Source: Isoetes taiwanensis
Lineage: Eukaryota > Streptophyta > Lycopodiopsida > Isoetales > Isoetaceae
Length of the DNA: 64,000 bases
Direction of reading: 5' to 3'
Assembly (NCBI GenBank): GCA_021234155.1
Contig: JAJEKV010000010.1
Coordinates: forward strand, 11,984,359 to 12,048,358
Shown: one piece after another, positions 1,111 through 41,121 of the stretch
How positions within the stretch are numbered: position 1 is the first letter of the stretch
How the letters are laid out: each line of letters starts with the position of its first letter
Translations under genes and position numbers: made by a program
Notes under the pieces: generated by a model
Told to the model about the DNA's origin: nothing
Databases searched by the model: none
What the model saw: only the letters and a program-made list of their open reading frames with translations

Positions 1111-2020
1111 AAAGCTGGGCCAATTTTCTATTCTTCCATATACTAGTTATATCGTATCAACCGTCTTGCGGTACTCCTTATCTCGGCGATTTGTATGGTG
1201 GCCCGGATGATCGCGGACGATCGATTGACGAAGTGAAGTGGCAGATTTTGAAGAGGTGGCCTTGTCTGCGGAGGAGCTCCATCGGCGTTTAGAGTGGGGC
1301 CTCTTCGGCGCGGGTAGAAATTTGGTTTGTGGTGGGGGCGGCTGGCGTGTGTAGGTGGACTAGGCGACAGCGGAGGTAACTTCCGGTCCGTCCTCCTGTA
1401 CATCTTTGTGGGGGTTAGCATGCAACACATAGGCACTGTAACTTCGCCTATTTGTCTTTTCATCAACATCAATTCTTGTTGGTGTTAGCAAGTGGCGTTC
1501 GAGGGTTAATGCATAGCGGCGTTGCGTCTTGCCGTCTATATTAACATAAAAGGCGATATAAGCAAAATTGCGGTAACATTAAGTCTCCGAGAAAATTCAT
1601 TTTTGGGTAATGTAGAAACAACATGAACCACGAAAAGCGGCGGAAGATTTTAATTATAAGGAGAAGTAAGCTGTTACATCGAAAAACTTCTGCTTTGAAA
1701 GTAGTTATAAACTTATAGTTATATAATACATACGGGGACCTGATACAGGCCTTTTCCTTAGTCATACTGAAACATAGGAACAGAAAACTAGAAGATCCGG
1801 CTTAGGGGTTGGCAAAGGGATACATGACGGAATAGCGCACACTCTCACGCACAGCTCTGACGAGCTTGTAACGTGCCCAAGCCTGGATGATAACGGGTTG
1901 ATAATCCCAAGTGGGGCTAATAATGAGAAGATTGAAAAGCCTCCTTAGAGCGTAGAAGATTTGCCACAGGTGGTCATTGGCATCCTCGAAGGCTTCATGT
2001 CTGGACATATTCCAATAGTC
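1111..2020 (-). other. Degraded gag-leader interval of element 1
   Basis: About 900 bases between the acidic ORF and the gag core hold only short broken frames. The part near 1550-1790 is clearly more AT-rich than its surroundings and could be a small insertion. The part near 1150-1470 encodes a Pro/Arg-rich stretch in one frame. I see no domain here. Confidence 0.3.
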
Positions 2021-3854: not shown

Positions 3855-3933
3855 GAGGGGTGAAAAGCATAAAGGAGGAGGAAAAGAAGCTAAAGCAAGA
3901 AGGGAAAATGAAACCCTAGTGGCCAAAAAGGGG

Positions 3934-3940
3934 TTTTATA
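3934..3940 (-). promoter_or_regulatory. Internal TATA box upstream of element 1 ORF2
   Basis: The minus strand reads AAGTATAAAACCCC about 80 nt before the ORF2 ATG at 3854. It follows an AT-rich stretch (about 3945-4090) after the H3 stop codon. Both copies of element 2 have a TATAAAAA box in the equivalent place, so the position is conserved and unlikely to be chance. Confidence 0.6.
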
Positions 3941-4098: not shown

Positions 4099-5419
4099 TC
4101 ATCTAAAATCCCCTCGGATCCTTCGTGCCAAGTGAAGGTCCTTGGGCATAATAGTAACCCTCTTTGCGTGTATGGCGCAAAGGTTGCGTCGCTCAAGAGT
4201 TCAATAAGATAAGCCTCGGCAGCCTCCTGTAGGGCGAGGACCGCAAAAGCTTGAAACCTTAGGTCGGTTTTGAAGTCACAGGCGATCTCCGTACAAGCAT
4301 TTGGAAGGGAAGCCCGGCGGATCAATGGCTCGGTAGTCTTCGATACTTACATTATCTCTCGAAAATATCACCGTGCGGGTCGATACCTATGGGGCTTCCG
4401 CGGCTTGAGGGTCGCCTTAAGCGATGGAATGGATTTGCCGCCTGTTGAAGGATGCTTTGTCCGCTGGACAATGTGCTCCCGTCTCTGAGCCGATGTCTTC
4501 TTGGCAATTGTTGCATCCTGCTGCAGTTGGGTCTTATAGTGCACCCCACTCCTAACAGGTCTGGATTTCGTTCTCTTCAATCTCCGGTTACCCTTTCTTC
4601 GCTTACGGCTGGCGTGTGATTACGCCCGATTGGTTAACGTCGTCGGCGAGGGTTTTCACGGGGGTTAGCGTTACGAGCGCACCTAGGTCCTGCTGGTCAA
4701 CATCAAGGTTCTGCTGCTGCTCCACCTGCTGGTAATCTTGCTGATCCCCCTGCTGATTCTCACTCTGCTGACTATGAAGGTCCTCCCCTTCCTTTTGGAG
4801 CCGCTCTCTCTCTTCGTCCCTGGCCTCTCTCTCCAGATGCACTTGGGTGCGCCGGGCAATCTCAGTGCCCGCATGTCTTCTTGGATGGATTCCAGGTGGC
4901 ATTGGCTAAACCTTGGCGGAACGTTTTCAAAAATGAAGCTGTGAAGGCCTTCATTCCAAGAAAAGGTAGGAAGATTAAAGTATTCTTGGTATGTGAGTAT
5001 ACGACCCTTTCCCAAGTAATAGAAGCGGTCCATCCTTAGGTCTGGTGGAGCACTGGCTATCTGCTGCAAGTCTTCCACTCTCGCAAGATGCATGATCCTC
5101 ACGGGCTTCACTCGAATAAGCTCGGCGGGGTCTTCATCACAGTCTGGCGAGGGGTAAAAACTTAACCACGACCCATGCGCGTCCATTTGCTCCGCGAGTG
5201 TAGGCTGATCGGCTTCATTCAACTTGATAAGAAAGCTTCGTTGAAATGGAAGATAGGGTAGGGGACTCTTGACCCCTCGACAAAGTGCTTGGCGAAAAGA
5301 TCAAGAATGGTATCTATCATAGGGTCTTAAATTCGGCAAGATGCTTTCGACTAGTCGCGACAAATAGGCTGGAATACGCTCAACTTCTTCAATTCCACGG
5401 TTAGCTTAAAGCGCGGCAT
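4099..5419 (-). pseudogene. Element 1 ORF1: uncharacterised N-terminal region plus histone H3 domain
   Basis: The first plausible ATG is at 5419. The upstream part (about 5419-4600) reads in shifting frames as an unrecognised protein with a YQEYFNLPTFSWNEGLHSF-like stretch, then a charged Glu/Arg/Gln-rich, probably coiled segment. The rest is histone H3. From 4463 it reads RTKHPSTGGK, then KPRKPHRYRP, corresponding to the H3 tail and its KKPHRYRPG junction. It continues with a fREI/TEpLIRR segment (alpha-N helix), CDFKTDLRFQ and [10 protein letters not shown] (alpha-2), and after one frameshift [15 protein letters not shown] and [11 protein letters not shown], followed by TGA at 4099. The stop falls where cellular H3 stops. 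Damage includes a frameshift near 4370, an in-frame TAA near 4350 and a missing base near 4185. Loop 1 is short, as in canonical H3 and unlike plant CENH3. The H3 assignment is secure; that the upstream part is fused to it is inferred from frame continuity and lack of another start. Confidence 0.85.
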
Positions 5420-6124
5420 GGTTATACTAGTAAAAAACGGCAAAGGGAGGAGGAAGGTGAAATTTCGGGCAAGGGTGGGGCGGCACTCAAAAGAGTAAAT
5501 AAGGGCGCTGAGGCGTAGGGCCGATGCAAGGGAGGCGTGGAGGTCAGCTATGGCGGGTTTGGAGCTTAAGTCCGGTGACTATATGGGCGGAAAAGGGCGC
5601 TCAGAGAAAGCACACGTCCAAAAATATATTTCAAAATTCAAATTTTAACTTTTAACTTTTTATTAAATTTTTCAAAAAAATATTAATTTTTTTTATAAAA
5701 ATTTTAAGCGAGTAGCGATATAAAATCACAGCTTGTGACCAGGTATCAAGGGTGACTGCGTTGCTTATCGGCTTTTATTTTCAAAAAGAAACACCTCACG
5801 AGTACAGCAAGCCCTTTTCATTTTTTTGACTTTGTTGTCTTTTTGACCTCGGGAGGCGTGCCCCTAAGGGTATTTGAGAGGTGCCGATCCATTGGAGCCG
5901 TTTTAAGCCTTCATCAGGAGCTACCTACAAAAGTTATGGCTCTTGAAACTTGGGTCTTCGGTCGGCCCGGACTTCTTAAGGAATTACAGGTCTATTACAT
6001 TAACCTAGCACTAAATCAAACATCAAAGACTTAAACACTCACTCTTGCTTAACTCTCTCTCTAACTACCGAACTAGCGAGTTAGGGTTTGGTCGGTGCTA
6101 TGATTTGAGTAGTAACGAAATCAC

Positions 6125-6140
6125 GGCTCACGATACCACT
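6125..6140 (-). other. Primer-binding site of element 1 (tRNA-Met type)
   Basis: Immediately inside the LTR the minus strand reads AG then TGGTATCGTGAGCC. This is close to TGGTATCAGAGCC, the complement of the plant initiator-tRNA-Met 3' end used by many Ty3/gypsy and copia elements. The position, directly after the LTR's terminal CA, supports both the site and the LTR boundary. Confidence 0.8.
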
Positions 6141-7758
6141 TGTGGCGGCTCCACGAACATATCGACCCCGTGGTATACATGCAGGGGACTTTTCCCTCCC
6201 ATGGCAACCAACTTGCCATAGCGGAACCCTCAGTCTAACTTTCGGGCCGTCTATAATAAGGCAGCTCAAGTGAAGGACCCGAGAGGGTCATTCATTACGC
6301 CTTCAATGGGTGCCTACGTCGCGGAGCGTGAATACAAGGGTTAGCACACGGCATAAATCACATATAAATAACCACCACGAAGGGTGGCACATCCATCAAA
6401 TACCAGCGGCAAAGAATATGCATCTAAACCTAAGAAAACACCCCAAACCCGGGTTCTACCCGATTCGGACTCTGTGAGGATAGGCGGCGGCTCGGCCTCA
6501 AGAGATCGTGAGGAGAGGTATAACTTTGGCGTTGGTGGCATAGAACATCGGCTAGGGTTGTCCACTCCATCCGCCCCTCCTGTGCACACTTTGCGGATGG
6601 GTCAATTCCGCTATATGGCCGCTATAGCCTTGGGAAACCTTGGGCTCAAGGCATCACCCTTAGAGCCTACTCCGGGGTTCATGAAGCCCGGTCAGATGAA
6701 GGCGAGGTCAGGGGAAGCGTCCCCTTCGGAATCCGCGGTGGTTCCATGGGTGAGCTAGAGAATCGTGCGCATCGGCGACCCCGCATCCGTGCAGGCTTAC
6801 TCACCCTAAATCTACTCAAAGTGCAAGGTGCCCCATCACGGGTCACACCTCTACACCAGGGGAGTGTCGGACCCATACCCGGCCCTCGTGGCCGGCTATC
6901 GGGCCTAGCCCTTTGTAGGAGTCTCGGGGAGCCTTTTATGTTCATGCAAGACCCCACCTCCACTTCACCACTTGTGTTCCTTGTGCGGTGCTAAGCGGTC
7001 CATAGCATCTATGACCCGGTGGGCTCTTGTGCCGGGCCACATCTAGCGAGGGTAATCTGAGGGGCTCTATCTAGGAGCATACTACAATAAATGGGCTCGG
7101 AGGTCTCTACCCCCCTTAATTCCCCATTTCGAGAATAATACTAGGCAAAGAACCATCAATCCATCCTTTGAAAGCAATCCCGAATCGAATATAAAAGAGC
7201 GAACTTAGCTTTACAATAAAGGGTTAGTTCCTACGAGTATAAATCTGAGAGAAACGGACAACCAACCCAACATGTGCCCAGCGAGGCTATCCTAAATTCA
7301 CAACTACACTAGCCACCCACTTGTGTTTTCTTTGGACCCGTTATCATTGGGGATTTCCATCTTCTCGGTCTTGGTGTTCATTTCTCTGGTCACAAGGGTG
7401 GCGTCAAGCTGCTCAAGGTGGCTTCGGTTAAGTCACAAGGGTGGGCTCCTTTGCTCAAGGTGAATAGTGGCTGATATGGGGGTGGTGATCCACCTTATTG
7501 GTCTCAATTAGCATTACCATGTTAGCCAATCGATGGTGACCACGTGGCGCCTTCCCAAACCATAATTAACTTAATTATGCCTTTTAAATATGAGTTCCTT
7601 AATTATAGGTTATTATCTTTAATAATTAAATTAGCATAGCTAATTTAATCCCTTTTAAGTCAACCCCCTAGGTTACTATACCACATGGTGGCGTATCTGT
7701 ACTGGGTGACGTGTCAATATATTTATACGTATACCGTATAAATACTTGGAACGTCACA
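6141..7758 (-). repeat. 5' LTR of element 1
   Basis: On the plus strand the LTR runs from TGTGGCGGCTCC at 6141 to AACGTCACA ending at 7758. On the element's own strand it therefore begins TGTGACGTT and ends GCCGCCACA, the expected TG...CA form. It lies directly against the primer site on its inner side. Its 1618 bp compare with 1631 bp for the 5' LTR of element 2, and several internal blocks are shared. The outer flank starts with a run of T; the partner LTR and its target duplication are not in the window. Confidence 0.8.
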
Positions 7759-20599: not shown

Positions 20600-22230
20600 T
20601 GTGACGGTCCAGGGGAATATACGCCATAAATACGTATATTCCTGGATCCGTCACTATACAAGTCTATCTTCATAGCCTTGTATACCATAGGTTGTGGCAC
20701 TAGGGGGCATGGCCAAGTTATTCTCATAACTTAGCCAACCATGGGTTAGACCATTATCCACGTGGCCTTAACCCATTGGGGGCACCGCCACCACCAGGAC
20801 TCACCCGATTGGTGCCCCGTGGCATCTAGGTGGACCCTAACATATAGGCCTAAACCCTAACCCTAGGCCTCTTTCCGGCCCTAGCACCCGGAGACTCACC
20901 TACTCGTTCGAAACCCGTTTGAACATGGATTGTTTGTGGCATAGGTCAGTGCGGCTGACTGGCCGGGGGTGGGCTTCGTTCTTGGGTAGGGGCGGCACCT
21001 GTGAGTCGAAGATCATGGAGGCAATACCGGATGCGGAGGGGAGAGCTTGAGGGGCGGTATATAGGATAGTAGTTGTGATAGCTTATGCGGAATTAGCATT
21101 CCGGATATGCTAGTATCTTTTATCTAGAGTAGAGCCATCCTAGAACAGTATTCAACATCTTGAACCCTAATCAATGAACCCTACAGTTAGTTAGTTGTAT
21201 GATTAGGTTAAGATGTTGTTCTTATAAATTATTCTCGTGATATGATGATTATGTGATGATGGTTGATCATGTTTGCTCCTCTTGTATTGGGAAGGGGGTA
21301 GAGACCTAGAGCCATATGTAGTATGCTCCTAGATTAGATCCCTTAGTTCCTATTAGTTGCGGCTGTGCATAGGAGCCCACCCGGGCTATTGAGGCTATGA
21401 TACGACTCGGCCACCCCATAGCGGGGCTAGAGGGAAAGTGGAGGGTGGATCCTGTAGGAGTGGGGGCTTGGGGGATCCCATAGTGGGCTAGGCTTATGGT
21501 GGGTCACGCCGTGTGGGCGAGCATGGGTCCGACACCTCACGGGGGGCAATGGTGCAGCCTGCCTCTCGAGGGCGCAAGTGTTGGCTTGGCTCGTTTTGGG
21601 GGTTAAGTGCAGTGCAATGGGTGTGTCGCCCACGATTCTCTAGTCAGCCCGCACGGAACCTCTAGACCTGGGGGAAGGGAGATGCAACCCTTCTGCCTCG
21701 TCGGACCCGGGGAGATGCAACTTTGGGTAGTCAGATGGGTGATGCCATGGGGCTGCGTATCCAGGAAGGCTAGAGTCTGTCGAGCGATTTAGCCCATCGC
21801 AAAGTATGCACGGGAGGGCGGATGGAGTGGTCAACCCTAGCCATTGTTCTATGCCAGCCCTCGCCATTGCCATGACTCGTGCGCTCTATCTTGAGGCCTA
21901 GCGGTCGGTCATCCTCCCACAGTGCCGGCGAGGGGTAGGAGCTCTCGTGTTTTAGATTGTGCTTATCATCTTTGTATTGGTATATGTGTGATGCACTACC
22001 CTTCGTGGTAGTATTTGTATATGTTTGATGCTAGTTACGGCGTGTTATAAACCCCATTTGTATAGGAGCCCATAGGGGAAGGCGCCAAGACACCTTCGTG
22101 TTCCCTCCCGCACTAGGGATCCCCCTCGAAGTCGGGGGGGTAGACAAAGGGCCCGATGCGGTTGTTGAGCCGGGCCGGGGGATTTCCTGCCGAAGTGTAC
22201 GGTTGGCGTATGTTTAGCGAGGGCGTCACA
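20600..22230 (+). repeat. 5' LTR of element 2
   Basis: The LTR begins TGTGACGGTCC and ends GGGCGTCACA, giving 7-base perfect terminal inverted repeats (TGTGACG/CGTCACA). The primer site follows directly. It is collinear with 39445-41121, sharing blocks such as GTTTGCTCCTCTTGTAT and GTAGTATGCTCCTAGATTAG. A TATATAGGATAG sequence near 21057 could be the LTR TATA box; the matching 3' LTR site is altered, so this is weak. Confidence 0.85.
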
Positions 22231-22231
22231 A

Positions 22232-22245
22232 TGGTATCGAGCAAT
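22232..22245 (+). other. Primer-binding site of element 2 (tRNA-Met type)
   Basis: TGGTATCGAGCAAT follows one base after the LTR's terminal CA. It differs from the canonical TGGTATCAGAGC by loss of one A. This is the initiator-tRNA-Met site type, as in element 1. Confidence 0.8.
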
Positions 22246-22793: not shown

Positions 22794-23887
22794 ATGGCTC
22801 GTACCAAACAAACCTACAGGGGAAGCACGGACCTAGACCCACCCTCTCCATGGCTTGAGGCGTGGGGCGACATGTCAAGAAGGTCCCCGAGCATCTTGGT
22901 AGAAGCGAGGCGATGAGGAGTCCCCCCGGTGGCCCGGCGGCGGCGGAAGACTCCTTCCATGATCTGCGGCGAGCCCAGTGATGCTTCGTCATCGGGGAGG
23001 CAGAGAAGCGGGTGAATCGCGCCGCCGGGGCCTCGGACAGCCGAGGTGGAGGAGCAGTTGAAGAAAGGTGGAGGCGGCACCACCACCCGAGGACGAAGAA
23101 GCGGACCCTTGATTGCCCAAAAGAAGGGAAGGAGAAAGTCGCGGAGTGGCACGAGGAGAGCGCCGAGGAAGAAGCGGGGCGGGAAAGGGAGCCGAGGGAG
23201 GCGGAAAGGAGGGGGCGAAGAGGAGGAAGCAGCCGGCCCTCGCCCGGACCGTCGTTATTGAAGAGAACCCCGGCGGAGGAGGAACCACAAGTGGGAGGCG
23301 GCCGGAGAAGAGGAGGAGGAAGCGGCGGGGAACCCTCGGCGCTAGGGCCACCCTACACCTAAGTGGCGGAACCACCTAAAGTGGTGAAGAAGCAAAAAGT
23401 AGTAGGGAGGCGTTCAGCCGGCGAGGACCCGAGTTCAAAGCGGAAGATGGCGGCATACAAAGTACCGCCGTGCGTTGGGCCCAGTACAATGAAGTGTCTT
23501 GCCGCGGGGAAGTGCGGTAGCGTTATTGGAGAGCGGCGAGGCGAAGAAGAATCGACCCAAGCCACCCCACCTAGACAGGAAAAACCAAGAGGGTTCACCC
23601 GCGGGCGAGCGGCCGCGTGCGGGTGTTTAGGGAGATCTGGCACTTCGGATATTGCCGCGAATCTCGATAAGAAAGCCCGCCGGCGTCTCCTTAGAGAGGT
23701 CATCTGGCGATTCGGGGGTGATTCTGGGGTAACCCCTCTAATGACCCGGGCCCTGCAGGAGGCCGCCGAAGCAGAGCTGGTGCAGCTCTTCGAGGAGGGA
23801 AACCTCTGCGCTATCCATGCTAAGCGGGTCACCCTCATGCCGAAGGACATCCACTTAGCACGGAGAATCCGCAGGGAGAGGCCCTAG
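22794..23887 (+). pseudogene. Histone H3-derived ORF, unit A of element 2
   Basis: The ATG at 22794 opens with MARTKQTYRGST, a near copy of the H3 N-terminus (ARTKQTARKST). It follows a TTTTTAAATATC TATA-like site near 22700 and a CT-rich leader. That frame stops at about 22917. From 22982 a second frame runs to 23887, broken only by one TAA at 23360. It encodes a long Lys/Arg/Glu/Gly-rich linker, [14 protein letters not shown], a KPRGFTRG segment at the KPHRYRPG position, RRRLLREV for QRLVREI, and an almost intact H3 C-terminus: [19 protein letters not shown], then [20 protein letters not shown], ending RIRRERP. H3 is normally 136 aa; this gene is about 360 codons because of the linker. The alpha-1/loop-1 region ([13 protein letters not shown]) is divergent. 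It is clearly H3-derived; nucleosome assembly by the product is not implied. Confidence 0.88.
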
Positions 23888-26639: not shown

Positions 26640-27790
26640 CCCACCTCCACCCCTTGTTTTAGGGTGGTGGCCAGGTCCCTCGGCCGAAGGGGAGGGCAAC
26701 GAGCGTGTCCCGAGGGGATAGAAGAAGGAAGAGGGAGGCTAAGAGTCCATCATCATCAGCTCCGGCTCAGCCAGACGGTTCTTCAGTGAGACTGACTCTA
26801 GCTCAGAGCGGTCGGTCACGGCACACCTAAGCGAAAGGAAAAGAGCAAAAGAAAGGCAGGATGACTTCTCCGGGGAAAAAGGTGGATAGTGCTATGAGCA
26901 ATGTATGGAAGACAAGGAGCGGGCGGTTCCGAGGAAAGGCAGTGGGGCATGGAGGCTGAAGCATGGCTTGATGAAATGGAAAAATTTGGCAACTCCTACG
27001 GTATGAAGAACAAGGACATAGGGAAAGTTGCTACAGCTAACCTTATTGGGCCAAGCAAGGATGCGGTGGAAGGGATATGCTAAGTCTAACAAAATTTGAA
27101 GAGGAACAATTGCGGTTAAGACCTTGACCAAGGCTTCCTTAAGCACTATGTGCCAAGGTCTCATACTAGTAAACCGAATCCGAAGCCAGTTTTGGCCAGA
27201 TGAGGGTAGCTTATACGGTGGCTAAGTATCACAGAAGAATTCATGAGGCTTAGGCTCCATGTTCACAGGTCTCGAGAGAGAACTAGCGTGGATACTTATA
27301 TTGAGGGTTGAGCGGCAATATCAAGAGGCTTGTTAGAGCAATCAACCCAAGGTCGATTCTGGTAGAAGATAAAGCTATAAGTTTGGAAGAGGCACGGCAA
27401 CTCAGGAGTAAGTTGAGAGGCTGATGCTCGGGGACAATACTCGAATTAAGCAATCGCGCCCGGCTACACCATGAAGTGGCCCGGCAAAGGTAAAGTCGAG
27501 AATAAAGCTTTTGGGGGCCGTAAGCCTGGGAATGCATCGAGGCGATTAGCATGGCCTCACAGGCAATCTAGCAGGAAGGAAGAGCCGGGGAATGCGGTGA
27601 GAAAAAGTTATGCTTGAGGTGCTTCAGTGAGACACCAGAACACATGATTAATCCATTCGTCCCATCGCGGTCACGGCCTTGGCGGGGAACTGCTTGGTTG
27701 GGGACTCCCCATGAGAAGGCGGCGGTGAGGCCCGAGCTGACCCGGCCGAGGAGGCCCGAGGACTTCATAGATGGTGGAGTGCCACATATG
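26640..27790 (+). pseudogene. gag: Gag region, unit A of element 2
   Basis: Gag forms the virus-like particle that packages element RNA. After a disordered leader the capsid region reads EAWLDEMEKFGNSYGMKNKD, then VATANLIGPSKD and, across frameshifts, FLKHYVPRSH, EEFMRL and AINPRSILVEDKAISLEEAR, the Ty3/gypsy retrotrans_gag pattern. A zinc-knuckle-like LCLRCFSE...EH follows near 27610-27650; its last Cys is not visible. At least four frameshifts interrupt the frame. It aligns with the element 1 gag core. Confidence 0.7.
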
Positions 27791-27829
27791 TGCAAACATT
27801 GAGGCAATTGATATAGAGAATCGGTCATT

Positions 27830-28150
27830 TGTCATTGCATTGATAGGATCATAGATAGTAATCCATGCTCTTAGTCCTCATAGATCGGTAGCTCTCATAA
27901 TTTTGCATCTCACAGAATTTTGGCTGCTATAATGAAGAACAAGGTATTGAAGTCTAAGCCAAGGCGGTGGCTATGGCAAAAAATGAAGCCATTCGACACA
28001 CTAAGGGGAGGAGGATCATCTTTGACATAGACAGGTGGGGCTAAGTGGTAGATGGGAGGCGGAAGTCATGGATATCGGAAGATATGATCTCATAGTGAAG
28101 GGATGGAATTCTTGAAGCAGTAAAGCCGCAGTTGGTGGGTAGGAATGAAG
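27830..28150 (+). pseudogene. Retropepsin-like protease region, unit A
   Basis: The stretch between gag and RT contains, across frames, a DIGRYDLIV-type segment followed by a G-W/M-E-F-L-like segment near 28075-28115. This matches the C-terminal YD(V/L)I(L/V)G(M/I)(D/E)(W/F)L motif of Ty3/gypsy proteases. The catalytic D-S/T-G triad is not readable. Assignment rests mainly on the C-terminal motif and position. Confidence 0.45.
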
Positions 28151-28249
28151 TCACCATGGCGGCACCCGGGCGGCGCAAATTGATAGTGAGGTAAGAAGCT
28201 AGATTCTCTATGCGGTGTATTTCCTTGAAGCGGCTAAGGAAAGAGTATA

Positions 28250-29150
28250 GAAAGGAATGGGTGGACTACATCTTGAGGGATGGAATCCCGGTTGAGGCAG
28301 GCAAAGCGGGAGGAAGTGACCAAAGAATCGATTGCGAGCTGAATGTAAGGCTTATTTGAGTTCAAGGATGTATTTCGGATGAAGTATTTGCCACCTTATA
28401 GGGGTGTGTGGAATGTGAGATCACATAAAACAGGATGCAAAGCCTACGGTAAGGCCATATAGAATGAGCACCCGAGAATTGATTAAGCTCAAGAAAGCGG
28501 CCGGGGTACTTTCGAGCTTGGATTTATAAGAGCAAGTGTGTCTCCTTTTGGGCACCTATACTCTTTGTGAAGAAGAAGAAAGATGGGAGCTTAAGAATGT
28601 GCATAGACTATGCGTGACTCAATAAGCGAGCGATAAAGAACAAGTATGCATTGCCAAGGGCGAGATGACCTAATGGACCAGTTACAGGGCAAAAGGTATT
28701 CTCTAAAATTGATTTGAGATTCGAGGACACCATCGAGATAAGAATAAAAGAAGAGGAACATCATATGGGGCCTTTTAGAATGCTGGTACATTCCACTTTG
28801 AGTTCTGATGGTACCCTTTGGACTATCCGAGCGCTCGGCAAGCGTTTATAAGCCTCATGAGCGACATCTTGAGACTTCTTGGATGAGTTTGTTGTTTATG
28901 CTAATGACGACATCCTAATCTCTGACCAAGTCCTTGAGGAGCATTGTCGGCATCTCGGAAAGTGTTGGAGAAGTTGAGGCGTCATCGGTTGTATAGGAAG
29001 CTCTCTAGGTGCCACTTTCTTGATAGTAGAGTGGGTATTTGGGGCATGTAGTAGCTTATCAGAAGTCTCCATGAATCCATCTAAGATTGAGGCAATAGTT
29101 GATTGGCGGCTCCAAGGAATGTGGCGAAGTAAGAAGCTTTCTCACAGTAG
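28250..29150 (+). pseudogene. pol: Reverse transcriptase, unit A of element 2
   Basis: The RT core is easily read despite frameshifts: KPTVRPYRMSTRELIKLKK, a FVKKKKDGSLRMCIDY-type block near 28567-28615, KNKYALP, QGKRYSLKLI/FSKIDL near 28690, an HFEF.WYPLDYPSA segment (for the usual MPFGLTNAP), then DEFVVYANDDILI at 28883-28920. The catalytic YxDD box has one extra residue (Y-A-N-D-D), which would probably inactivate it. EEHCRHLGKVLEKLRRHRLY and the KLS.CHF thumb segment follow. Confidence 0.8.
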
Positions 29151-29189
29151 GGATATTCTGAAGAGAAGTTAAATGAGGACTTTCTTGAA

Positions 29190-29915
29190 ATTAGAGCGTC
29201 CCCCTTTATTAGGACCTCACTTAAAGGCCAAGAAGATTAAGGATTGGACTAGCCATTGGTTAGAAAGTCAAGCTTCTTTTGAGAGCTTAAAGAGGCCTTA
29301 GCTGCTTGACACCGGTCTTGTTCTCGGATCAGTAAAGATAAGTTGGTAACAGGATCTGAAGCAAGATAACCTTGAGGCAGTCTTGATGCAAGAAGGAAAA
29401 TAATGATAGCCCTCTGACTGAAGAAGATGAGCGGCAGAACAAGCGTACCCAACCCATGATCGGGGGCTGCTAGCAGCCATTTAATGAGCATTGAGGATGT
29501 GGGCATTGCTCTGGCGGGAAGGAAGTTTGATTGGATCGCGATCACGAGCCGGTATCTCTTCACCCAACCACTCCTCAACTTAAGGCAAAGAAGGTGGATG
29601 GAATTCCTTGAGGAGTATGACTTTGATATTGTATATAAGCACGGTAAGCAATATTTGTAGCGAGATGCCCTCTCCGGGGAGACCATTCCAGTTAAGGATG
29701 CATTGTAATCGCGATTTCCTCTTTTGAGTGCTTGAGTTTGGCAAGAAGATTGAGGAGTCATATAGCAGAGATGTGGACTCCAAGGAGGTATGGGAAAGTC
29801 TTTCCAAAGGAAGCGAGCGAATGGGCTGAAGCCTTCAAGCATTATCGCGGCGCGCTGGCTGAGCTCTCCCGGACGGGATTTCCGCCATGCACGGGTCGCA
29901 TGTTTATAAGTGGTT
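29190..29915 (+). pseudogene. pol: RNase H and spacer, unit A
   Basis: Frames after the RT contain an FESLKRGLS-type segment (29275-29300), PVLFSDQ near 29315 and a [20 protein letters not shown] run near 29560-29620. Then come the [11 protein letters not shown] block and an ADALS-type end near 29620-29680. This is the standard RNase HI-to-spacer order in Ty3/gypsy pol. The spacer ends near TGCACGGGTCGCATGTTTAT (29889-29907), which aligns to CTGCACGGGCATGTTGTAAA in unit B. Confidence 0.65.
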
Positions 29916-29940
29916 ACCACAATGGTGAGTCAGAAATGTT
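29905..29940 (+). other. Junction between units A and B, with a relic primer site
   Basis: Pol sequence ends at about 29913 and is followed by GGTTACCACAATGGTGAGTC. That aligns to GGCGTCACAATGGTATCGAG at the LTR/primer-site boundary (22221-22240). The second unit thus starts at the internal edge of the LTR, not inside it. Short similarity (ATGTTTA) precedes both sides and could mark a template-switch site. Confidence 0.65.
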
Positions 29941-30461
29941 CTCTGCTGACTCAAGAACTAGCACCCACTATAACCATGAAGGTAGCCCAACAGCCTATAG
30001 GGTGGGAAATAAATATTCCGCCCACCATTGAACTCAAAATGGGGAAAATTTTTTCTCCCAGTAGTGGGTCGATTTAGTTTAAGTGTTAGGACGGAAGGAA
30101 TGAGCGAGTCAAACAAATTCTGGAGTGCCCTGAGGAAATTATGCATCTGGTGATCAAATTTCACCTAAATGGGTCAAGAATCATGCCAATCGGAGACCTG
30201 TGTTCGCTAACTCAATAATTAGCACTCCAAACCATTAGAGAAATTCGAAAAATTTAAAGATAATATCAATTAATATAGGTTACTACATTAATAGTTTAAA
30301 CAATTACTAAATATGGTAATACCTAATAAGGGCCAATAACAGGAGTACTCATGGTGGAATATTCCCAGCACTCTCCCTAAATATCCACCCTCATTCTCTC
30401 TCTCCAACCCTCTTCACCTTCACCTCTTTGCTCACCTCATTACCCATTTTCCAACCATAAG

Positions 30462-31547
30462 ATGCTCACCAAACAAAACCGCCAGAAGCTCCGGATCAGA
30501 CCCACCCTCTCCATGGCGCAGCAAAGGCATGATTTCTACAGCGTCCCCTGGCATCTTCTACCGGGTTGAAGTTTGTAGACGAGGAGTCCCCCCGCCGCCA
30601 GCACAGCTGTTTAAGACTCCCTTCCATGATGCCTGGCAGCCCCAAAGAAGAGCTCCTCGCCATCGAGGCAGTTTTGGTAACCGTGAATCGCTACCACTTC
30701 TGGCCCCGTGACACCGGAGGTGGAGGAACGTGCTGGAAGAACAGGAGGAGCAAAGCCACCACCACCGTATCACAGCTGGCCCTTCGCTCCCAAAAAGAAG
30801 GAAGGGATAAGCTCACCAGAGTGGCCCCGCGGAGGCCGTGAAGCAGCCTTTTCGGAGCCGGAAAGGGAGCCGAGGGTTTAGAAAGGATAGTACTCTGAAG
30901 AGGAGGAACTACGGACGCCGCTATTAAAGAGCCCCTACAGGAGGAGGAACTGCGGGAGGGCTTAATTTGAGAAAGAGGAGGAGGAAGCGCACAGTACCCC
31001 TGAAGCCAGGGCCACCCTACCCCAGAAAAATTTTGGAATCCAAACCTAAAGTGGTGAAGAAGCAAAGGTAGGGAAGTTTTCGCTCGGGCTCGGACACAGG
31101 ATCAAGAAGTTCCGCCTTTAAGATGGCGGGCAGATAAGGAGTACCTTCGGCTGCTGACGGCGGGTACAATGAGTGGTGCACCGCCAGAGGCGGTGCAAAT
31201 TGCCAGGTGCTTGTCGGGCGAAGCAATCAGCCTGCCACCCCCACCTAGACCGGAAAACCCCAAGAGGTTCTCACCACCAAAGACGCGACGCTCTCGGGTG
31301 TTTGTGTGGAGATACTGCGACTTCTGATGCACCACCCCTGGCGGCAGCGCTCTCGAAAGGCCTCCCCTTAGAGGTCATGCAGCCAGCTCCTAATTCCTCA
31401 CAGAAAATCCCTCTAATGACCCGCCCCCAGGAGGAGGTCGGCAGAGTCGGTACCGAGAGGGAAACCTTCGCGCTTATCCATGCTAAGCTTAAATACCCCC
31501 ATGTCATGACATCCACTTTAGCAATCTGAGAATCATATGGAGTCCAG
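30462..31547 (+). pseudogene. Histone H3-derived ORF, unit B of element 2
   Basis: The ATG at 30462 corresponds to that of unit A. With one-base corrections the tail would read M-(x)-T-K-Q-T-A-R-S-S, so the ARTKQTAR start of H3 is recognisable. A basic linker follows, then PKVVKKQR-like sequence at about 31045. A TVALGCLWRYC-like segment near 31300 matches GTVALREIRRYQ of H3 better than unit A does. The C-terminus is badly eroded: MTRPQEEVGR and ETFALIHAKLK stand for ALQEAAEA and [10 protein letters not shown], and the final helix is frame-broken near 31500-31545. Confidence 0.65.
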
Positions 31548-32206
31548 GGTCTCAAATTTTGTAAATTTGTAGAAGAGTTAAAATCTCTTCTATGTAATCA
31601 TGTTCTTATTAATATAAAAGTATTTTCCCCAAAATTAGGGAAAAAAATGTCAGACAGTTTTGAAATTTAGAAATAGAACCCAAATTGTAGTAGGATTCTT
31701 CCATAGCACCCTCAAAATATCCTAGAATCATAACGCTAAATGTAAATTCTTGGTAAAAATCATCAAAATGTTAAATTGGGGCCAAACCCGCAGACCACAA
31801 TTTAAGGCCTCAAGGCCCCTCGATTTGGCTCCGGATTTCTCCTCCAATCTCACCCAAAACGCTTTACGGCTCAAAATAAGTTGCTATTAGGTTAGAATTG
31901 GCCCAATTAGCCATATATTAGCATCTTCAAATTCCCAAATTGATCTCACCACCAAAACAGCTTGACCGGTGAGACCATACCAAACGCCTGCCCGACGCTG
32001 AGGCCATCCGCAATTTCATCTTCAAATGTTCTATTCCAATTCAAATTAGCCAAATTTGATCCAACAAACGGCCATATGTTGTTTGCCTTTGTTTCTTTTG
32101 CTTTAAGTTTGACTTCATGGTAGTTCTATCACAACTGTGAGCTATATAGAACCAAGGCCTCGCCTTAGTAGGTACCCTTTGCACTAACCCCAGACGTTCT
32201 TAGCCC

Positions 32207-32213
32207 TATAAAA
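32207..32213 (+). promoter_or_regulatory. Internal TATA box before ORF2, unit B
   Basis: CCCTATAAAAATAGGTC stands about 110 nt before the ORF2 ATG at 32322. The TATAAAAATAGGT core is identical to unit A although the surrounding DNA has diverged. Confidence 0.6.
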
Positions 32214-32321
32214 ATAGGTCCTTGATTTGCCATTTTTCCTTCTACGAACCTTCCAGCCCCCCTTTAGGCCATTTTCAACCCTCAATCGATCTGCGCTCAC
32301 TTTCACACCCCTTCCTCGCCA

Positions 32322-33843
32322 ATGGCTCTTCAGCAAAGAACTTTGAGAGATGGTACAATGTCGCCCACATCCATCACCTTCCCCGACTCAAGCCTTCTCC
32401 AGGTTTGGACTAATCTGCTGACCTCGCAACCTCGACAAACACCCCTACCACGCGACATTATGCGCCAATATGACCGCCAGGTCCCCGCCTCGGGAAGTTA
32501 GATTACCCCTCAGGGAGGGAATTGGCTCTCCTGGCATAACACCCAAGCCCTTAGGTCGAGGAGCCAAGGTGCCCAAAAGGCAAGCAGCTATGGATAGGAC
32601 TAGGACCATGTTCGGGACATGACCCGCGGTACACACAGGGCATAGGTACCTCCCTGGCCCCCGCATGCACTCTGCCCTTCCGCACCATAAGTCAATCAAC
32701 AAAGCAGGGGAACCTTCCTCAAGCCCAGCCCCTAGACTTCAGTTTCTTCACTTGATAATCTCAAGAGTCTGCGGATCAAATCCCAACATGAGTCCCACCA
32801 CGTAATCACCATGGCACCCACGCCCCTAAAACCATCCTCCGCAGACGAAGACTACTTGTACTAGGAGCGCAAACCCGCAACGGGAGAGCGTGAGCCAAAT
32901 AAGAATGTGAGGGTATTTTGAGGCATCGACGACGCATGAGAATAGCCATCGACCCACCCGGTGGTGATTACAAGCGAGCCACTGGCAGTTTATCACGGGA
33001 GGAGTATATTTTAAATGATATCTCTAACTTGTCCCACTGCTGGGGAATCAGGGTCTCGGACCGACGAGCCTTTGGGCATGATAGCACACTGTGGAAGAGT
33101 ACGTGACCTCATCACTATTCATACTGTAGGACCTAAGGGGAGCTTCTAGCTGAGAGACACCTGGCGTCATAATGTCATGGAAGTGCTCATCGCCAGGAGA
33201 TCACTCCCACAAAGCAGAACCCACACCTAAGAGGAGAGGTTCCTGCAGCAGACATGGGAGCACACGGGCAACCCCAGTGAGGGCCTGCCTGCTTCACTCG
33301 GGCCTCGGGAGCCAAGCATGAGGGAAGGGTCCAAAGAGCATCACCCCGGCCAGTCTTAAATTCAAAGATGTGGAGAGACCATGAAGATCTTATGGCAAGA
33401 TGCTCACGACGCATAAACAAAGGGAAGGGCACCGGATCGGGCGAGGCTGTGAGGGAAGGGCACGACTTCGCTTACCATTCTCCCAGCCCCTCACCTGGCA
33501 AACATAGTCTTCCACAAGGAGTTCTGCCCTGTGAACCGCACTTCTCTATAGCACTTTCTAAGCTCAGCAAAGATCAAGATATACCTACGCCGCATCACAT
33601 CATTCTTCATCAGTAGCAAGCCAAGGGCTTCCATTGCCTCGACTTCAAGGAGGCGTACCCTGTGGATGCAACACTTTCGGGGCTTGTAGCAGCAACGCAC
33701 GTAACTTCCGGAATCGGAAAGATGGCCCCGGTACTGAAGAAGATCGACGAGGAACATCTTCAAGGCGAACTCCTCGCAGAAAGGCCTCCGATTCGTGGAT
33801 GCCAAGAACTTCTTCAGCTTTCGAGGCTATCAATAGTTGTTAA
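32322..33843 (+). pseudogene. ORF2, unit B of element 2
   Basis: The start reads MALQQRTLRDGTM, without the early stop seen in unit A. Frames then break repeatedly. The C-terminal part is readable as HHIIL, FHCLDFKEAYP, a MQHF-like segment and VDAKNFFSFRGYQ, and aligns with unit A up to the stop near 33841. No function is recognised. Confidence 0.4.
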
Positions 33844-34539
33844 ATCTCTTTTAAGTCTTGTGCTAAATGATTTCTTCAGACCCCCATTATGCTAAGTATA
33901 TATCTATACCATTATCATGTAATCCTTATGCATTTCAATGACTATTAACCGCTTTTGGTAAATGCGGCTTTGTATGATTTCTATAACTAGAAGATAATTC
34001 AATCGTAGCAAAATCTGATCAACATCTAACCTAAATAAAATGTATTGATGATCAAACCTTGCAAAGAAGTGAAACTCTGGCGCAGGATCCTGCAATGACC
34101 GCCAACACGCGAATTGGGTACCAAGGAACTTGTTCGCGTAGGTCGGTAGCGGTCTTTGAGCGTGATATGTCACCGTGAGGCAATCAACGCATACCGGGTG
34201 CGTATGAGGAACCGGGGATGCGAACCTCATCAACTCAAGGCAACTTAATTCATGAATAATCGAGTGAGGATGGAATCACTTCCACTTCCACGAGCCGTGG
34301 CGAACGGTCCCTCGCCAGAAGGGGAAGCAAACCGGAAACGCCGTGGGATAGAAGAAGGAAGAGGAGAACTATGAGTCCATCATCATCATCTAGTCTGTTC
34401 TCATCGCATAGCTTCTTCCGTTGAGGGATACTTTTCCAGTCTGAAGGGCCACCGCGTACCGGTAAAGCAAGGAAAAGAGCAAGAAAGCATGTGATGACTA
34501 TCGAAAAGCGCGGATAGTGCTAAGGAGTAAATGTATGGA

Positions 34540-35260
34540 AGATTAAGCAGCCGCTTCGCGGAAATACGTCAGTAATGGAGGTCAAGGCGGCTGATGAAAT
34601 GCAAGAATTCCGGGCAAATTCCCTACTGTGATGAAAGTACGCGCTATATAGGAAAGTTGCCAAACAACCTGGCTAATCGCTGGACCGTAAAGGGATATGC
34701 AAGCATCTAATGTCAAGAGGAAACAATTTCAAAAAGTTTTGCACTGTTAAAGTACGCGCGTTCCGCATTTAGATGACCGTACATTTTGGCAGTTTAACGT
34801 ATTTATCAGCTAGCTATTGGTGATAATCGGCGAATCTTATGAGGGCTTCAGTTCCGCGTTCTCGGAGCCCCAGAGTGCTAAAGGGATACTTTATATTGAG
34901 GTTGAATAAATAATTTATCAAGAGGTTTGTTTTCAGAAAGCAATCAACCCAAGGTCAACAGAGGTCAAGATGCTTTTCGCGTTTGGTATGAAAACCGTTA
35001 AACCTAAAGAGTTCCGCAGGGCATCGCGGACATCGTAAGTAACCGCGTTCGCTACCACCGTGGAGTCGCCAGCGGGTAAGGGTCAGAATAAAGCTTTTGG
35101 GGACCGTGGTATTTCAATAATGCATCAGCGCTCTGGGTTCCTGGGGATACCGCCTGGCGGAAAAGCGAGAACGCATTGAGAAAAAGGCGTTTGTGCGCTT
35201 CCAATTTAGGGCACCCACCACAATATCAAGTCCGCATTCGCCATTTTCGGGGCGTGAACT
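34540..35260 (+). pseudogene. gag: Gag remnant, unit B
   Basis: Nucleotide blocks match the unit A gag (ATGTATGGAAGA near 34530, GGGATATGC near 34693, TTTATATTGAGG near 34890, AGCAATCAACCCAAGGTC near 34940, AATAAAGCTTTTGGGG near 35088). The protein frame is largely lost and no zinc knuckle is readable. Confidence 0.55.
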
Positions 35261-35369
35261 CTTTGACAATTCCCCAACGTAATTTTTATTTGCGGATTGA
35301 ATTTTTTGCATCACAGAGTCTCGGTGACTTCGGCATGGTGAGCGCCAAGAAAACATTTGGTATTTATAG

Positions 35370-35670
35370 AGAATCAATACCCATGCCGACGGATCATAGG
35401 ATAGTAATCCATGGGCGTAACTCCCCGCGATACAATACAGTAGCTAATTTTGTGATCTCCAGTCAGCCGCCAGAACGGTAATAAATCAAGGTATTGAAGT
35501 CTAAGCCACAAGCATATGGTAAAATGGCTGCATTCATTAATAATTAAGGGGAGGAGGATCATCTTGACATAGACCTTAGTGGGGCTTAAGTGGGCCGATG
35601 GGAGCTTTCGGGCCGGATATCTAAGATATGATCTCATGTTGGGATGGAATTTTTAAAATGCCTGCGCCAT
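35370..35670 (+). pseudogene. Protease remnant, unit B
   Basis: AAGGTATTGAAGTCTAAGCC (35489-35508) and GGGGAGGAGGATCATC (35548-35563) match unit A exactly over short blocks. The RYDLM.GMEF-like end near 35625-35655 corresponds to the protease C-terminal motif. The active site is not readable. Confidence 0.4.
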
Positions 35671-35899
35671 CGACGCGTACCTACGCGACTTTACCACTTC
35701 CATTAACCAAATTGATAGCGGAAAGGGCAGCTAGATTCTCCTTCGGCGTATTTCTTTGAAGCGGCAAGAGTACATGTAGCACGGCGGTGGACTATGAATC
35801 TTTGGAGATGGAATCGGGCTTGAGATGCGTTGTGGAGGGAAGTGACCAAAAGGGGAAATCACGGTTCAAAAAGTATAGTAAGGTTTATTTCGGTGCCCG

Positions 35900-37350
35900 C
35901 GATGGCTTCCTGATGAAATTCACGCCACCTTATAGTGAAATGGAGATCACATCATCTTGATGTGCTCACGGCAAGAGGCGCTATATAGAATGAGCACCCT
36001 CAGAATTGATCGAGCCTTCAAGAAGGCCTGTGGAATTGCCTCTGTTTGATTTATGGGAGCAGGTGCCCCTTGGCAACTTTATAATTTTGTGAAGAAGGCG
36101 ATGGGAGCTTCAAGCATTTGAGGAGGATCATCGCTACTCTTAATAAGCAGTAATTATAAAAGAATAAGTATGTATTTCGCTAAGGGCGGGGAGGACCTAA
36201 TGGACTAGCTTATATGAGCAAGGTATTTCTAAAAATTGACGAGGTCGATACCAATGGGAGGGCGAATAAAGAAGAGGATATCTATAAGATCACGTAACGC
36301 GAGCGGTCACTTTGAGTTATAAAGAATTCCCGAATTTACCCAATCCGCCCGCCAAACGCTTATTTCATGAAACCACATCTTGGCACTCATTGAGCTTCAT
36401 TATCACCTTCTTCACACATCCTAATCTACGCCAAAGAAGTCCCTCGGCGATAATTGCCTTCATCCTCCTGGCGCCGTATGTTTGATTACCCGCCGTGCCC
36501 CGCTGCCACTTTACCAGAAATTGGTATATTAAAGCGCCGCAGTGTCAATCCTGGTAACTCACGCATCTACCCGTTATCGAAAGTACAGCTTATCGTTTCT
36601 ACCCGCGAATGCGCATAAGAAGCTTTCTGATCGTTTTGATACGGCAGTTCCGGTAGGGCGACTTCGTATGGCGGCATCCCCTTTGGTCGACTTCACTAAG
36701 GCTGGCAGCGATTAAGGATTGGACTAGCCACCGGGTTAGATATGTCCGCTCTTCGAGCTTTGAAGAGGGCTTCCTTTAAACAACGTTAATTTCAGCTGGC
36801 TTTGTCTCCCTGATCCGAAAGCGCAGCGATGCTGGTAACTGGATGCAAGCAAGAGAAAACGGTGATACCGACGCATGCAGCTATAGCTTCACGACTCGGC
36901 GAAGATGGAACCGAATTTCGGTGCTAACGCTACTCCAAACCCATGACGGAGTCGCCAGCCATTGTCGGCATCGAGGATATGGATATACTATTCCGCCGGG
37001 CGAAGCTCAGCTTGATACTCGATCACCCTTGCGCCTCTGATTCTCTCAACCCAAACCACCTCAACCTAAGGCAAAAGAAGGTGGATGGAATTCCCGAGGA
37101 GTATGACTTTGATATTGTATAAGCCCTGCGCTTTGCCGCAGCGCATTCCAGAGACCATTTCGGCATAAGGACGATTGTAATGCTGCATTTCCACTCTTTG
37201 AGTGAGTTTGGCGCAGCGATTGAGGAGTCCTTTGCCAACGATGTGGACTTGCTGAGGTATGGGAAAGTCTTTCCAAGGAAGCCGTAATCGGCATAAGGAG
37301 CCGTGCCTCTGCCATTATAAGAAGGAAGGCAACCTGCACGGGCATGTTGT
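35900..37350 (+). pseudogene. pol: Reverse transcriptase and RNase H remnant, unit B
   Basis: Blocks near 35990 (ATATAGAATGAGCACC), 36085 (TTTGTGAAGAAGG), 36195 (GACCTAATGGACTAG) and 36230 (AAAAATTGAC) align with the unit A RT. The YxDD box has been lost (36395-36425). RNase H blocks at 36710 (GATTAAGGATTGGACTAGCC) and 37075 (AAGAAGGTGGATGGAATTCC) are near-identical to unit A. This copy is much more eroded than unit A and cannot encode polymerase. Confidence 0.65.
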
Positions 37351-38355
37351 AAAGTCCTAATCGTCAGTGGGTAAGAAGCTGACCTTCATGATACACACAA
37401 TGTTCCTACCAGCAGGCATGCGCTTCTAAAGCATCTATTTCAAGATCTCAAGTAGCTACTCGCCAGAAATGAAGATGGATAGTCAAGATATATCTGGACT
37501 CATTATGTCGTACCCAAAGTTTTGAGCAACTTCTGGATCTGCGTGCCTTTGAGCCATCGGGGCAGCTAAATGCAAAGTGGGGAGGTCATAAGCATGGATT
37601 TCATCACGTCTCCCTTGTGAACTCTCGAGGCAAGGATGCATTGATGGTTGTCAATAGCAGAGGGCACGGAAGATGGCAGTTACCTTTAAAATGCAAAGAA
37701 TTAAACATAACCCCCATTAGATACTGCCATTTGTAAGGAGATTTCTTTACCCACGGTACGCCTTGGAGATAATATCCGATGTGGATTCCAAGTTTATGAG
37801 TGCCTTTGGCAGACCTCTTTAGCACTATCTGCACGGCTCTCCATGAGCACCTGGTGATATCATCCCCAAAACGATGTATCGACCGAAAAGGGCGAATCGG
37901 ATCATTGAAGACATGCTTTGCTGCGTGTGGGGAATCGCTACCCGCGGATGAGAGTATATCCACTGGTGGAATTCACGGCAATACGCCAGAGTCATCTCAG
38001 ATGTTCCTTTCATGGTAAATTACGGTACTTTGCTTAACCCTGATAATCGGCACAACTCGCGGTCCGTAGAAGTGCTGTCCAAGGTAGAAGTGTTCCGCCA
38101 GGCGTTGTGATATAGCAGCAATTTTAGTGGAAGAAGTGGCCACACGTACGAAGTCGGGCGTAAGAGTGTAGCCGCATGCTGCTGGACCGTGAAGGGAGTT
38201 CAAGGTAGGCGAGAAGCGCTTATTAAAGACCAAGGCAGCCGTTTCGATTGGGAGTTGCAAGAAGCTTGCCCCTAGGTGGGCTGGTCCGGCTCAAGATCTG
38301 GCAGAGTGGGCCTGCTTCCATAAGTTGGATCTTCCGCCCCATCTCAGTCCGCTGT
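37350..38355 (+). pseudogene. pol: Integrase (single copy) of element 2
   Basis: Integrase inserts the cDNA into host DNA. A zinc-finger-domain remnant reads LHDTHN, KHLFQDL and YSPEMKMD near 37380-37475. The catalytic core begins at MDFITS (37593) with the first Asp, then SRGKDALMVVVN-like sequence. NRIIEDMLCCVWGI at 37893-37935 corresponds to the conserved NR.(L/I)EDMLR after the catalytic Glu. The C-terminal domain is clear: EFKVGEK at 38196, then RWAGP, then KLDLPPHLSPL at about 38320-38350. Frames are broken in several places. There is one copy only, after tandem unit B. Confidence 0.75.
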
Positions 38356-39444: not shown

Positions 39445-41121
39445 TGCGATATTCGTGCAAACATACCGCTAAATACGATATATTCCCCGATCTGCCACCG
39501 CTACAAGTCTATCTTCATGTTCTTGTATACCTTATAGGCAAGTACTAGGGCATGGCCAAGTTATTATTCTCATAACTTAATAACCATGGGTTAGACCATT
39601 ATCCACGCGGGGGTCTTTAACCTATCAAAGTACCAGCTGCATCACCTTCCCAAATTCCTGGATTGGTGCTGCACGGCAATCCCAGGTGGACCTAAACTTC
39701 AGGCAGGTGTGTGTGGCCCAACCAACCCTAGCCTCTTTCCGTTTCTAGCACCTGTGAGATACCCCCACTCTACTCGCTTCTGGAAAGTCCCCACAACATC
39801 GCTTGTTGTAAAGAATGGCAAAGAATTCTCGGTGGGTAGGTAATTCGCTCTTTTTGGAGTAGGAGCAAAGACTCCTCGAGTCAAGGATCATGGAGTACAC
39901 CTGATCTGGGAGGAGAGCTCGTGAGCGTGCTGGTGGATAGTAGTTTGTGATGCAGCTGGTCCTCAACAGCACCTGTGATATGCTAGTATCTGCACCAGAG
40001 TAGAGCCATCCTAGAATCAGATTCTGCATGATTCTAACCCTAATCAATGAACCCCAACCAAGAAGCAGCCGTGGCTGGATTAGGGTTAAGATGTTGTTCT
40101 CAGCGACATTCTCGATATGATGATTATGTGATGATGATTTCGACTCAAGTGTTTGCTCCTCTTGTATCGGGAAGGGGGGTGGCACTCCAGAGCCATGTAG
40201 TATGCTCCTAGATTAGATCCCCTTTAGTTCCTATTAGCCGCCGCGGCATAGGAGCCTACCTGTGCTATCGAGGCTATGATATTTCACCTGCCACCCCATA
40301 ACGGGGCTAGAGGGAAGTGGAGGGTGGATCCCCTCACGAGTAGCCTGATCCCATAGTGGGCTAGGGCTTATGGTCGGTCACTGCAGGCTTGCAGCATGGG
40401 TCCGACACCTCCGCAATGGTGTCACCGCCTTCCTCGAAAAGAGAGAGTCGCAAGCGTTGGCTTGGCTCTCGCTTTGGGGTTAAGCTTCCGGGTAATGAAT
40501 CGTGGTAAAGTTCTCAATGACATTCTCCAGTCAGCCCACTCAACCTCTGCGGTAGGACCCCTGGAAGGAGATGCAACCTCCCGCCTGACCAGGAGATGCA
40601 ACTGGAGTAGTCCCCGCTGGTGATGCTACGGGACCGCGATCCCAAGCATCCCCGTGAGCCCTCGGGATTTAGCCCACCTGCAGAAGTATGCACAGAGCGA
40701 TGGAGTGGTCAACCTTACCATTAGCCTCCTATGCCACCGCCATTGCCATGACTCCTGGCCTCAAGCTTCTATCTTGGGAGTCTACTCACAAACAACCTCC
40801 CTTGGCATTTAGTCCTGAGCCGGTAGGTTTCCTGCTCTCAAGCAGTTTGAAGCTAACACCCTGCATTGCATGGCGTGAACATGCACTACCCTTCTCGTGG
40901 TAGTATTTTGTATAAGCAAGGTTTGACACGCTGGCTCTAATGCTATCGCTCACTGTAGAGCCCACATGGGGGAAGGGGCTACAAGACACCTCCAGAGCCC
41001 CTCCCCCGCGACTAGGATCCCCTCATGTGGGGTGAGACTCAAGGGCCCGGGCTACAAGCTGGCTCCCACGGGATTGCCGAGTGTAATTACCACCGTGATG
41101 TTTAGGGGCAGTGGAGCCACA
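39445..41121 (+). repeat. 3' LTR of element 2
   Basis: It is collinear with the 5' LTR but with many short replaced or inserted stretches. Its start (TGCGATATTCG) has lost most of the TGTGACGGTCC terminus; its end reads GGAGCCACA before the ACATC target duplication. Shared blocks include GCATGGCCAAGTTATT, ACCATGGGTTAGACCATTAT, GTAGTATGCTCCTAGATTAG and CATGGGTCCGACACCTC. Confidence 0.8.

Follow-up and report, generated by a model that had tools for sequence, protein, structure and literature searches.

Histone H3 genes carried by transposable elements have been described in fungi. In Pyrenophora tritici-repentis, hAT DNA transposons carry H3L, for which full-length variants and ESTs are reported (PMC3538342), and H3-like copies are present in hAT elements of Pseudocercospora fijiensis and its relatives (PMC6710886). 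The Isoetes taiwanensis elements described here are similar in that a transposable element carries and amplifies a histone H3. As far as the accessible text of these papers goes, the fungal hAT elements are class II elements whose copies are recent and near-identical or inactivated, whereas the Isoetes element is a class I plant LTR element, in which the H3 is joined to a long extra region, is deeply diverged and has a measured purifying selection.

With the plant chromoviruses (Tekay, Galadriel, Reina, CRM and Tcn1) the Isoetes family shares a Met-tRNA-type primer site, 5-bp duplications, the order gag-PR-RT-RH-INT and an apparent CHD_II chromodomain, but no element-borne histone is described for them in the accessible parts of the literature (PMC6317226, PMC3350952). 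Extra ORFs outside the polyprotein (eORFs) are found in Ogre, Retand, Athila and SIRE, and the domains named for them are the plant mobile domain, Transposase_28 and Athila ORF-1 (PMC6317226). In contrast to these, the Isoetes eORF (ORF1) ends in a near-canonical H3 fold, and there is a second eORF (ORF2) without a Pfam match. Virus-encoded histones, such as the bracovirus H4, single H3s and the Marseilleviridae doublets, resemble ORF1 in their conserved fold, their altered tail and their presumed action in host nucleosomes; they do not belong to retroelements, and no N-terminal domain of the size found in ORF1 is described for them in the accessible text (PMC9145170).

An earlier note on this locus had stated that it knew of no described H3-carrying Ty3/gypsy family, and this agrees with our search, in which no H3 in an LTR retrotransposon was found in the open-access literature, largely without subscription papers and preprints. 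In the accessible text of a survey of plant LTR elements the word "histone" occurs once, for H3K9 (PMC6317226), that of a review on viral histones makes no mention of retrotransposons (PMC9145170), and the word is absent from the main text of the paper on the Isoetes genome (PMC8566536). Transposon-borne H3 is therefore already known; an LTR-element H3 under clear purifying selection was not found reported within the open-access literature searched. Points that go beyond the earlier note are the long additional region, the chromodomain, ORF2 ahead of gag and the fungal hAT precedent.

In our reading, to which we assign a probability of about three in four, a chromodomain-bearing Ty3/gypsy family has acquired an H3 of the host type and retains it as ORF1, a nucleosome-competent variant that would serve the element on chromatin. 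Much of the silencing that hosts impose on retrotransposons works through histone H3 marks, and for an LTR retrotransposon an H3 of its own, kept under selection through deep divergence, would offer a direct route to influence this silencing. The family also provides a large collection of natural H3 variants in which the tail is rebuilt while the core is preserved. Two questions become testable with it: can the histone bearing the silencing marks be replaced by a mobile element, and which partner does the integrase chromodomain of the plant CHD_II type bind?

The window copy and its relatives in lineage W

The window is the whole stretch of 64,000 nucleotides that was analysed. Its H3-carrying element of lineage W lies on the forward strand and begins with a 5′ LTR (20600..22230), which starts with TGTGACG, ends with CGTCACA and has partial matches of 70-83% to the LTRs of two further loci (L012 and L014). 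The decayed primer-binding site (22232..22242) reads TGGTATCGAGC, and many relatives have TGGTATCAGAGC, which we take to be of the tRNA-Met type. The ORF1 relic (22794..23887) is composed of the H3-like N-terminus MARTKQTYR at 22794, a long linker and a C-terminal H3 fold, which is encoded at 23681-23887. Downstream follow remnants of the same element (26949..29808), detected by tblastn with the gag-pol of L012: gag (26949-27391), RT (28277-29118) and RNase H (29224-29808). The H3 ORF is thus located between the primer site and gag, as had been noted earlier, and two whole elements described below show the same order.

The single ORF from MARTKQT to the H3 C-terminus that had been proposed is only partly found in this copy. 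Both ends are present, but they do not share one open frame: frame 1 contains stops from codon 41 onward, and the H3 end is encoded in a different frame (23363-23887). In the relatives L047 and L048 the frames are open from start to end, and the single ORF is therefore the structure of the family, seen through a broken window copy. The CT-rich leader and the TATA-like site that had been pointed out near ORF1 are both present as stretches of sequence, of putative function.

The relatives of lineage W (L043-L050) are eight of 39 other scored places, among the best, and were fetched by DNA similarity to window positions 22700-22960. This stretch includes the ORF1 start, so that the choice favours conservation, though not silent over replacement changes. 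All eight encode the start MARTKQTYRKPGPRPTLS, which matches H3 residues 1-6 plus R8 and K9, and the 18 codons differ only synonymously. One open frame from this start to the H3 end is found in two of them (L047 and L048, 364 and 368 aa), and no single open frame crosses the stretch read in the other six. The linker of lineage W differs from that of the lineages A, C and D introduced below. By alignment only, the core of L047 is identical to host H3 at 58 of 88 positions. Between the cores of L047 and L048 there are 24 non-synonymous and 49 synonymous changes, the silent sites being beyond correction. In the H3 tree, W, which may be a second capture, forms a long branch, and host and W are split from A, C and D with a support of 0.84. 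A comparison of W with ORF2 by hhalign resulted in a probability of 5.9%, on a 60-residue piece only.

Whole elements, gene order and family size

Two whole elements were read piecewise. The first (L014/L029) is about 13.2 kb long and has LTRs of 96.5% identity and the target duplication GTGGC; the second (L012/L031) is about 11.2 kb long, lacks ORF2 and has LTRs of about 93% identity and the target duplication CAATC. Both show the LTRs, primer site and target duplications of Ty3/gypsy elements, and Pfam detected the Ty3 capsid/gag, protease, RT, RNase H and integrase in that order. The layout is LTR, primer site, ORF1, (ORF2), gag-PR-RT-RH-INT and LTR, flanked by the 5-bp duplications. Transduplication by a hAT element, as for the fungal H3L, was rejected because the two elements show LTRs, a reverse transcriptase and 5-bp duplications. 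ORF2, which is located between ORF1 and gag, comprises 453-502 codons in eight aligned loci (e.g., L014:3306-4715:-) and is 43-45% identical between lineages A and D.

The genome (1,658,258,908 bases in 1110 contigs) belongs to a lycophyte, whereas the earlier note had thought of related ferns and gymnosperms. It was searched with PF00125, and 150 of the 8705 first-look candidates were scored. By their score, the best 15 of these 150 matches form a group apart; eight of them were fetched, and all eight are canonical H3 of 136 aa. Among the remaining 135 scored matches, 55 are located in open frames of at least 300 aa and five have an internal stop. Twenty loci (L009-L028) were taken from the 150 scored matches for score, long frames and H3 at the end. 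As they were picked for an H3 frame, the presence of ORF1 in them is given by choice, and intactness and omega values are favourable. ORF2 was found in 19 of these 20 loci, and in 17 gag follows downstream in the same order; in further loci of the set gag precedes PR and, where reached, RT. Additionally, DNA probes from two lineages yielded 678 and 1475 first-look candidates, with 40 scored in each search.

For a sample chosen independently of the H3 frame, the LTR-primer junction pattern was used, which has 184 forward and 184 reverse matches in the genome and none for the reversed control. Every tenth of 100 matches listed was taken, resulting in ten loci of one LTR type with 1.9 kb read downstream. 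ORF1 is present in six of them, five of these six contain H3 sequence, and three of the ten are open throughout: L037, L039 and L042 carry a complete open ORF1 with H3. L040 has two ORF1 parts in two frames and a start codon other than Met, L041 has an ORF1 part with most of the H3 core, and L035 has the N-terminal part only. In L033 (C1:1694190-1696090) gag starts about 770 bases past the primer site without ORF1, and this locus may be an ancestor-like form or a deletion derivative. No ORF1 homology was found in the 1.9 kb downstream of the junction in L034, L036 and L038. With six loci carrying it and four lacking it, ORF1 is common in the family, not universal. Furthermore, at least 17 of the 100 junction matches listed could be paired by eye with a listed H3 match on the same strand at a distance of 1.46-2.95 kb.

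Thus ORF1 is located within the mobile unit, and in a good many copies its frame is open. The earlier note had made its claim dependent on other copies carrying the H3 ORF, and this is borne out by the junction-chosen loci as well as by the ORF2 and gag neighbours in the H3-chosen ones.

The ORF1 protein and its possible roles

The lineages A, C and D were named by their ORF1 starts MPRFK, MANTK and MEEVK. Their ORF1 frames of 411-459 aa encode, in this order, a conserved domain of about 210 residues (N-domain), a variable acidic/Q-rich linker, a basic region and the H3 core. PF00125 was detected in all five ORF1 proteins scanned (A, C and D) with 142-148 bits against a cut-off of 26.4 and E-values of 1.2e-41 to 2e-43, and the best-matching PDB chains carry the names histone H3.3 and H3.1. 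A chance resemblance to H3 was rejected because of E-values down to 2e-43. For the N-domain (alignment A1) and for ORF2 (alignment A2) there was no Pfam match over the cut-off and no convincing PDB relative (best E-values 0.55 and 0.9, respectively), and a comparison of the two revealed no link between them. NCBIfam gave nothing over the cut-off, and a scan of IMG/VR gave no relative of ORF1.

The H3 core is 86.7-88.9% identical to host H3 over 90 aa (seven loci of A, C and D). In the 20 H3-chosen loci, 66 of the 99 residues at H3 positions 37-135 equal the host residue in every copy. R40, R49, R69, R72, R83, C110, H113, K115, R116, T118, K122, D123, L126 and R129 are kept in all 20 loci; we presume these to be DNA, H4 or H3-H3 contacts. 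Varying contact residues are R63 (kept in 19 of 20), K64 (R in 12) and R42 (K in 7), and most others are invariant. T107A is found in all 20 loci and I124L in 19.

The retention of residues that we take to be tetramer and DNA contacts would also fit a packaging role, in which ORF1 together with host H4 coats or compacts the cDNA of the element, either within the particle or as part of the pre-integration complex. Such a role has been proposed for some histones encoded by viruses. Altered tails are described for viral histones (PMC9145170). Packaging, however, needs host H4 in the particles, for which the sequence gives no sign, and we regard it as improbable.

The host loci L001-L008 encode full canonical H3 in two versions, one with S and the other with T at residue 87, and have Y41, E77 and L90 throughout. 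An origin specifically from H3.3 was rejected, since the host canonical H3 itself has Y41 and L90 and these residues therefore do not discriminate. CENH3 has a longer loop 1 than H3; a CENH3 origin was rejected because no internal insertion was found in 28 cores aligned with host H3. The H3 is a host gene by origin, and E77 of the eight canonical host loci is shared by 16 of the 20 element cores, which would fit a domesticated family of host histone-variant genes merely sitting in repeats. That the frames are not element genes is nevertheless barely credible in view of the two insertions whose LTRs and 5-bp duplications enclose ORF1 and gag-pol, and of the order kept in 17 of 20 loci.

Selection was estimated as omega by NG86. 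In 18 pairs of the H3-chosen loci, omega is 0.00-0.12 for the core, 0.04-0.22 for the N-domain and up to 0.95 for the linker. In six pairs formed by L022 and the three junction-chosen open copies, three of the pairs being wholly junction-chosen, core omega is 0.01-0.03 at a dS of 0.5-1.1. The ORF1 H3 core is under strong purifying selection. A single insertion of a host pseudogene, the counter-explanation raised in the earlier note, was rejected because ORF1 is present in junction-chosen copies, the order is kept in 17 of 20 loci and core omega is this low; in addition, two insertions have target duplications of their own with ORF1 inside.

The same values bear on the view that the captured H3 is a passenger which is amplified along with the element without benefiting it, a situation found in some fungal hAT elements. 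The fungal H3 transduplication, with copies inactivated in P. fijiensis (PMC6710886), and the broken or missing ORF1 at some junction loci are in line with this view. Against it stand the core omega at this dS and a core identity of 84-92% between lineages A, C and D, compared with 28-36% for their N-domains. For A, C and D a passenger is strongly disfavoured because of the omega values, and for W because of 0 amino-acid differences against several synonymous ones in the 18 codons of the eight relatives, so that we consider it very unlikely overall. The data suggest instead that the H3 is kept intact in a large element family and that the elements use it on host chromatin.

In place of the normal H3 N-terminal tail of about 36 residues, or interrupting it, there are a few hundred additional residues. 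All 24 ORF1 proteins with a start, from all lineages, have K as residue 4, although the start Met was assigned with motifs containing this K and K4 outside W is a short match; L009 (without an ORF1 start) and L040 (non-Met start codon) are omitted from this count. By eye, the start Met is the first Met of the frame except in L014, with an in-frame Met upstream, and L027, with an adjacent Met. Summed over a single member of each of the lineages A, C and D, ungapped identity to the H3 tail amounts to 10/33, which is reached by 0.0004 of random windows from the same proteins in a post hoc test. In the simplest reading, ORF1 would derive from an H3 into whose tail a long insertion entered after about residue 9.

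The usual setting of H3 K9 and K27 is ARKS. Ahead of the core it was found in three of four lineage-C proteins and in none of the 21 others, of which four (L011, L019, L020 and L024) have RKS without the A. The loss of the K9/K27 setting is therefore not general. The core points to the nucleosome, and the fusion would display something other than the normal tail there; ORF1 would accordingly be deposited in nucleosomes with an element-made tail, and the proposal includes that this would happen specifically on element DNA rather than elsewhere. A tail with K4 and without the ARKS setting, as in A, D and W, might let element nucleosomes resist H3K9/K27 silencing and stay open to activation, a suggestion that we hold at somewhat below even odds. 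Action on chromatin through such an escape is favoured as a first guess and the tethering of integration as a second.

Tethering would mean that ORF1 is present in host nucleosomes and that its N-domain or tail recruits Gag or integrase, steering insertions. The selection on the N-domain in the 18 pairs speaks for this, as does the chromodomain in which the integrase ends (PF00385, E-value 6.2e-9 in L031) and which is CHD_II-like in the one copy read. On the other side, the 26 exact junction matches on contig C907 show no uneven distribution (KS p 0.37) and thus reveal no pronounced choice of sites on this scale. We rate the tether as rather unlikely, below the escape from silencing.

In the single copy L031, A and L stand at the first and third sites of the aromatic cage and the W is kept; the corresponding stretch of L029 is frameshifted. 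The cage is defined by Y24, W45 and Y48 (PMC3350952), and without its first and third residues that of L031 looks like the CHD_II type. Both chromodomain types, including CHD_II, are reported in Selaginella (PMC3350952). The cage is reported to be preserved in non-seed plants (PMC6317226), with which this one copy does not fit. A binding partner of CHD_II is described as not identified in the accessible text of these sources (PMC6317226, PMC3350952). Much more speculatively, the element H3, with K4 kept and the canonical silencing sites absent in most lineages, could be deposited on the element's own DNA, and the cage-less integrase chromodomain could now read this self-made mark instead of host H3K9me. 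The element would thereby write and read both chromatin state and insertion choice, which we consider a long shot.

Further observations in the window and in related loci

In the window a second related internal region (29901..38345, forward strand) follows in tandem. It contains RT/INT remnants and an ORF1 relic in a more advanced state of decay (about 30460-31550), and is followed by a 3′ LTR-like sequence (39470..40768, forward strand). The latter is only 70% identical to 20627-21892, which marks an old, broken copy. The tandem internal regions extend over 22227-29814 and 29918-38345. Junction pairs on the same strand at distances of 7-11 kb were also found elsewhere (C908:7500212/7511614, C907:11379951/11391445 and C930:17415515/17422874). 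Together, the tandem regions and the close junction pairs suggest elements that share LTRs in tandem.

On the reverse strand, the window contains a second H3-carrying element, which belongs to lineage A. Its 5′ LTR (6136..7758) is 82-83% identical to the LTRs of L012 and L014. Its ORF1 (N-domain and H3, 4102..5455) has frameshifts and stops and was recovered in tblastn pieces, with an N-domain identity of at most 77% to L009. By sequence match, ORF2, encoding a protein without a known relative (2584..3935), and a gag/protease part reaching the window edge (12..1566) were assigned to this element.

A third small frame between ORF2 and gag is present in several loci, e.g., L022:7143-7637 (165 aa) and L026:7014-7529 (172 aa), and has no Pfam match. 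In L010:478-8512, LTRs of 95.5% identity enclose an open ORF1 and ORF2, and no gag-pol was found between them; this locus is perhaps a non-autonomous derivative retaining both extra ORFs. Finally, long frames of 900 and 193 aa on the reverse strand of the window (15092-18595) are PPR-like according to our own reading, which is in line with the richness in PPR genes of the Isoetes taiwanensis genome (PMC8566536).
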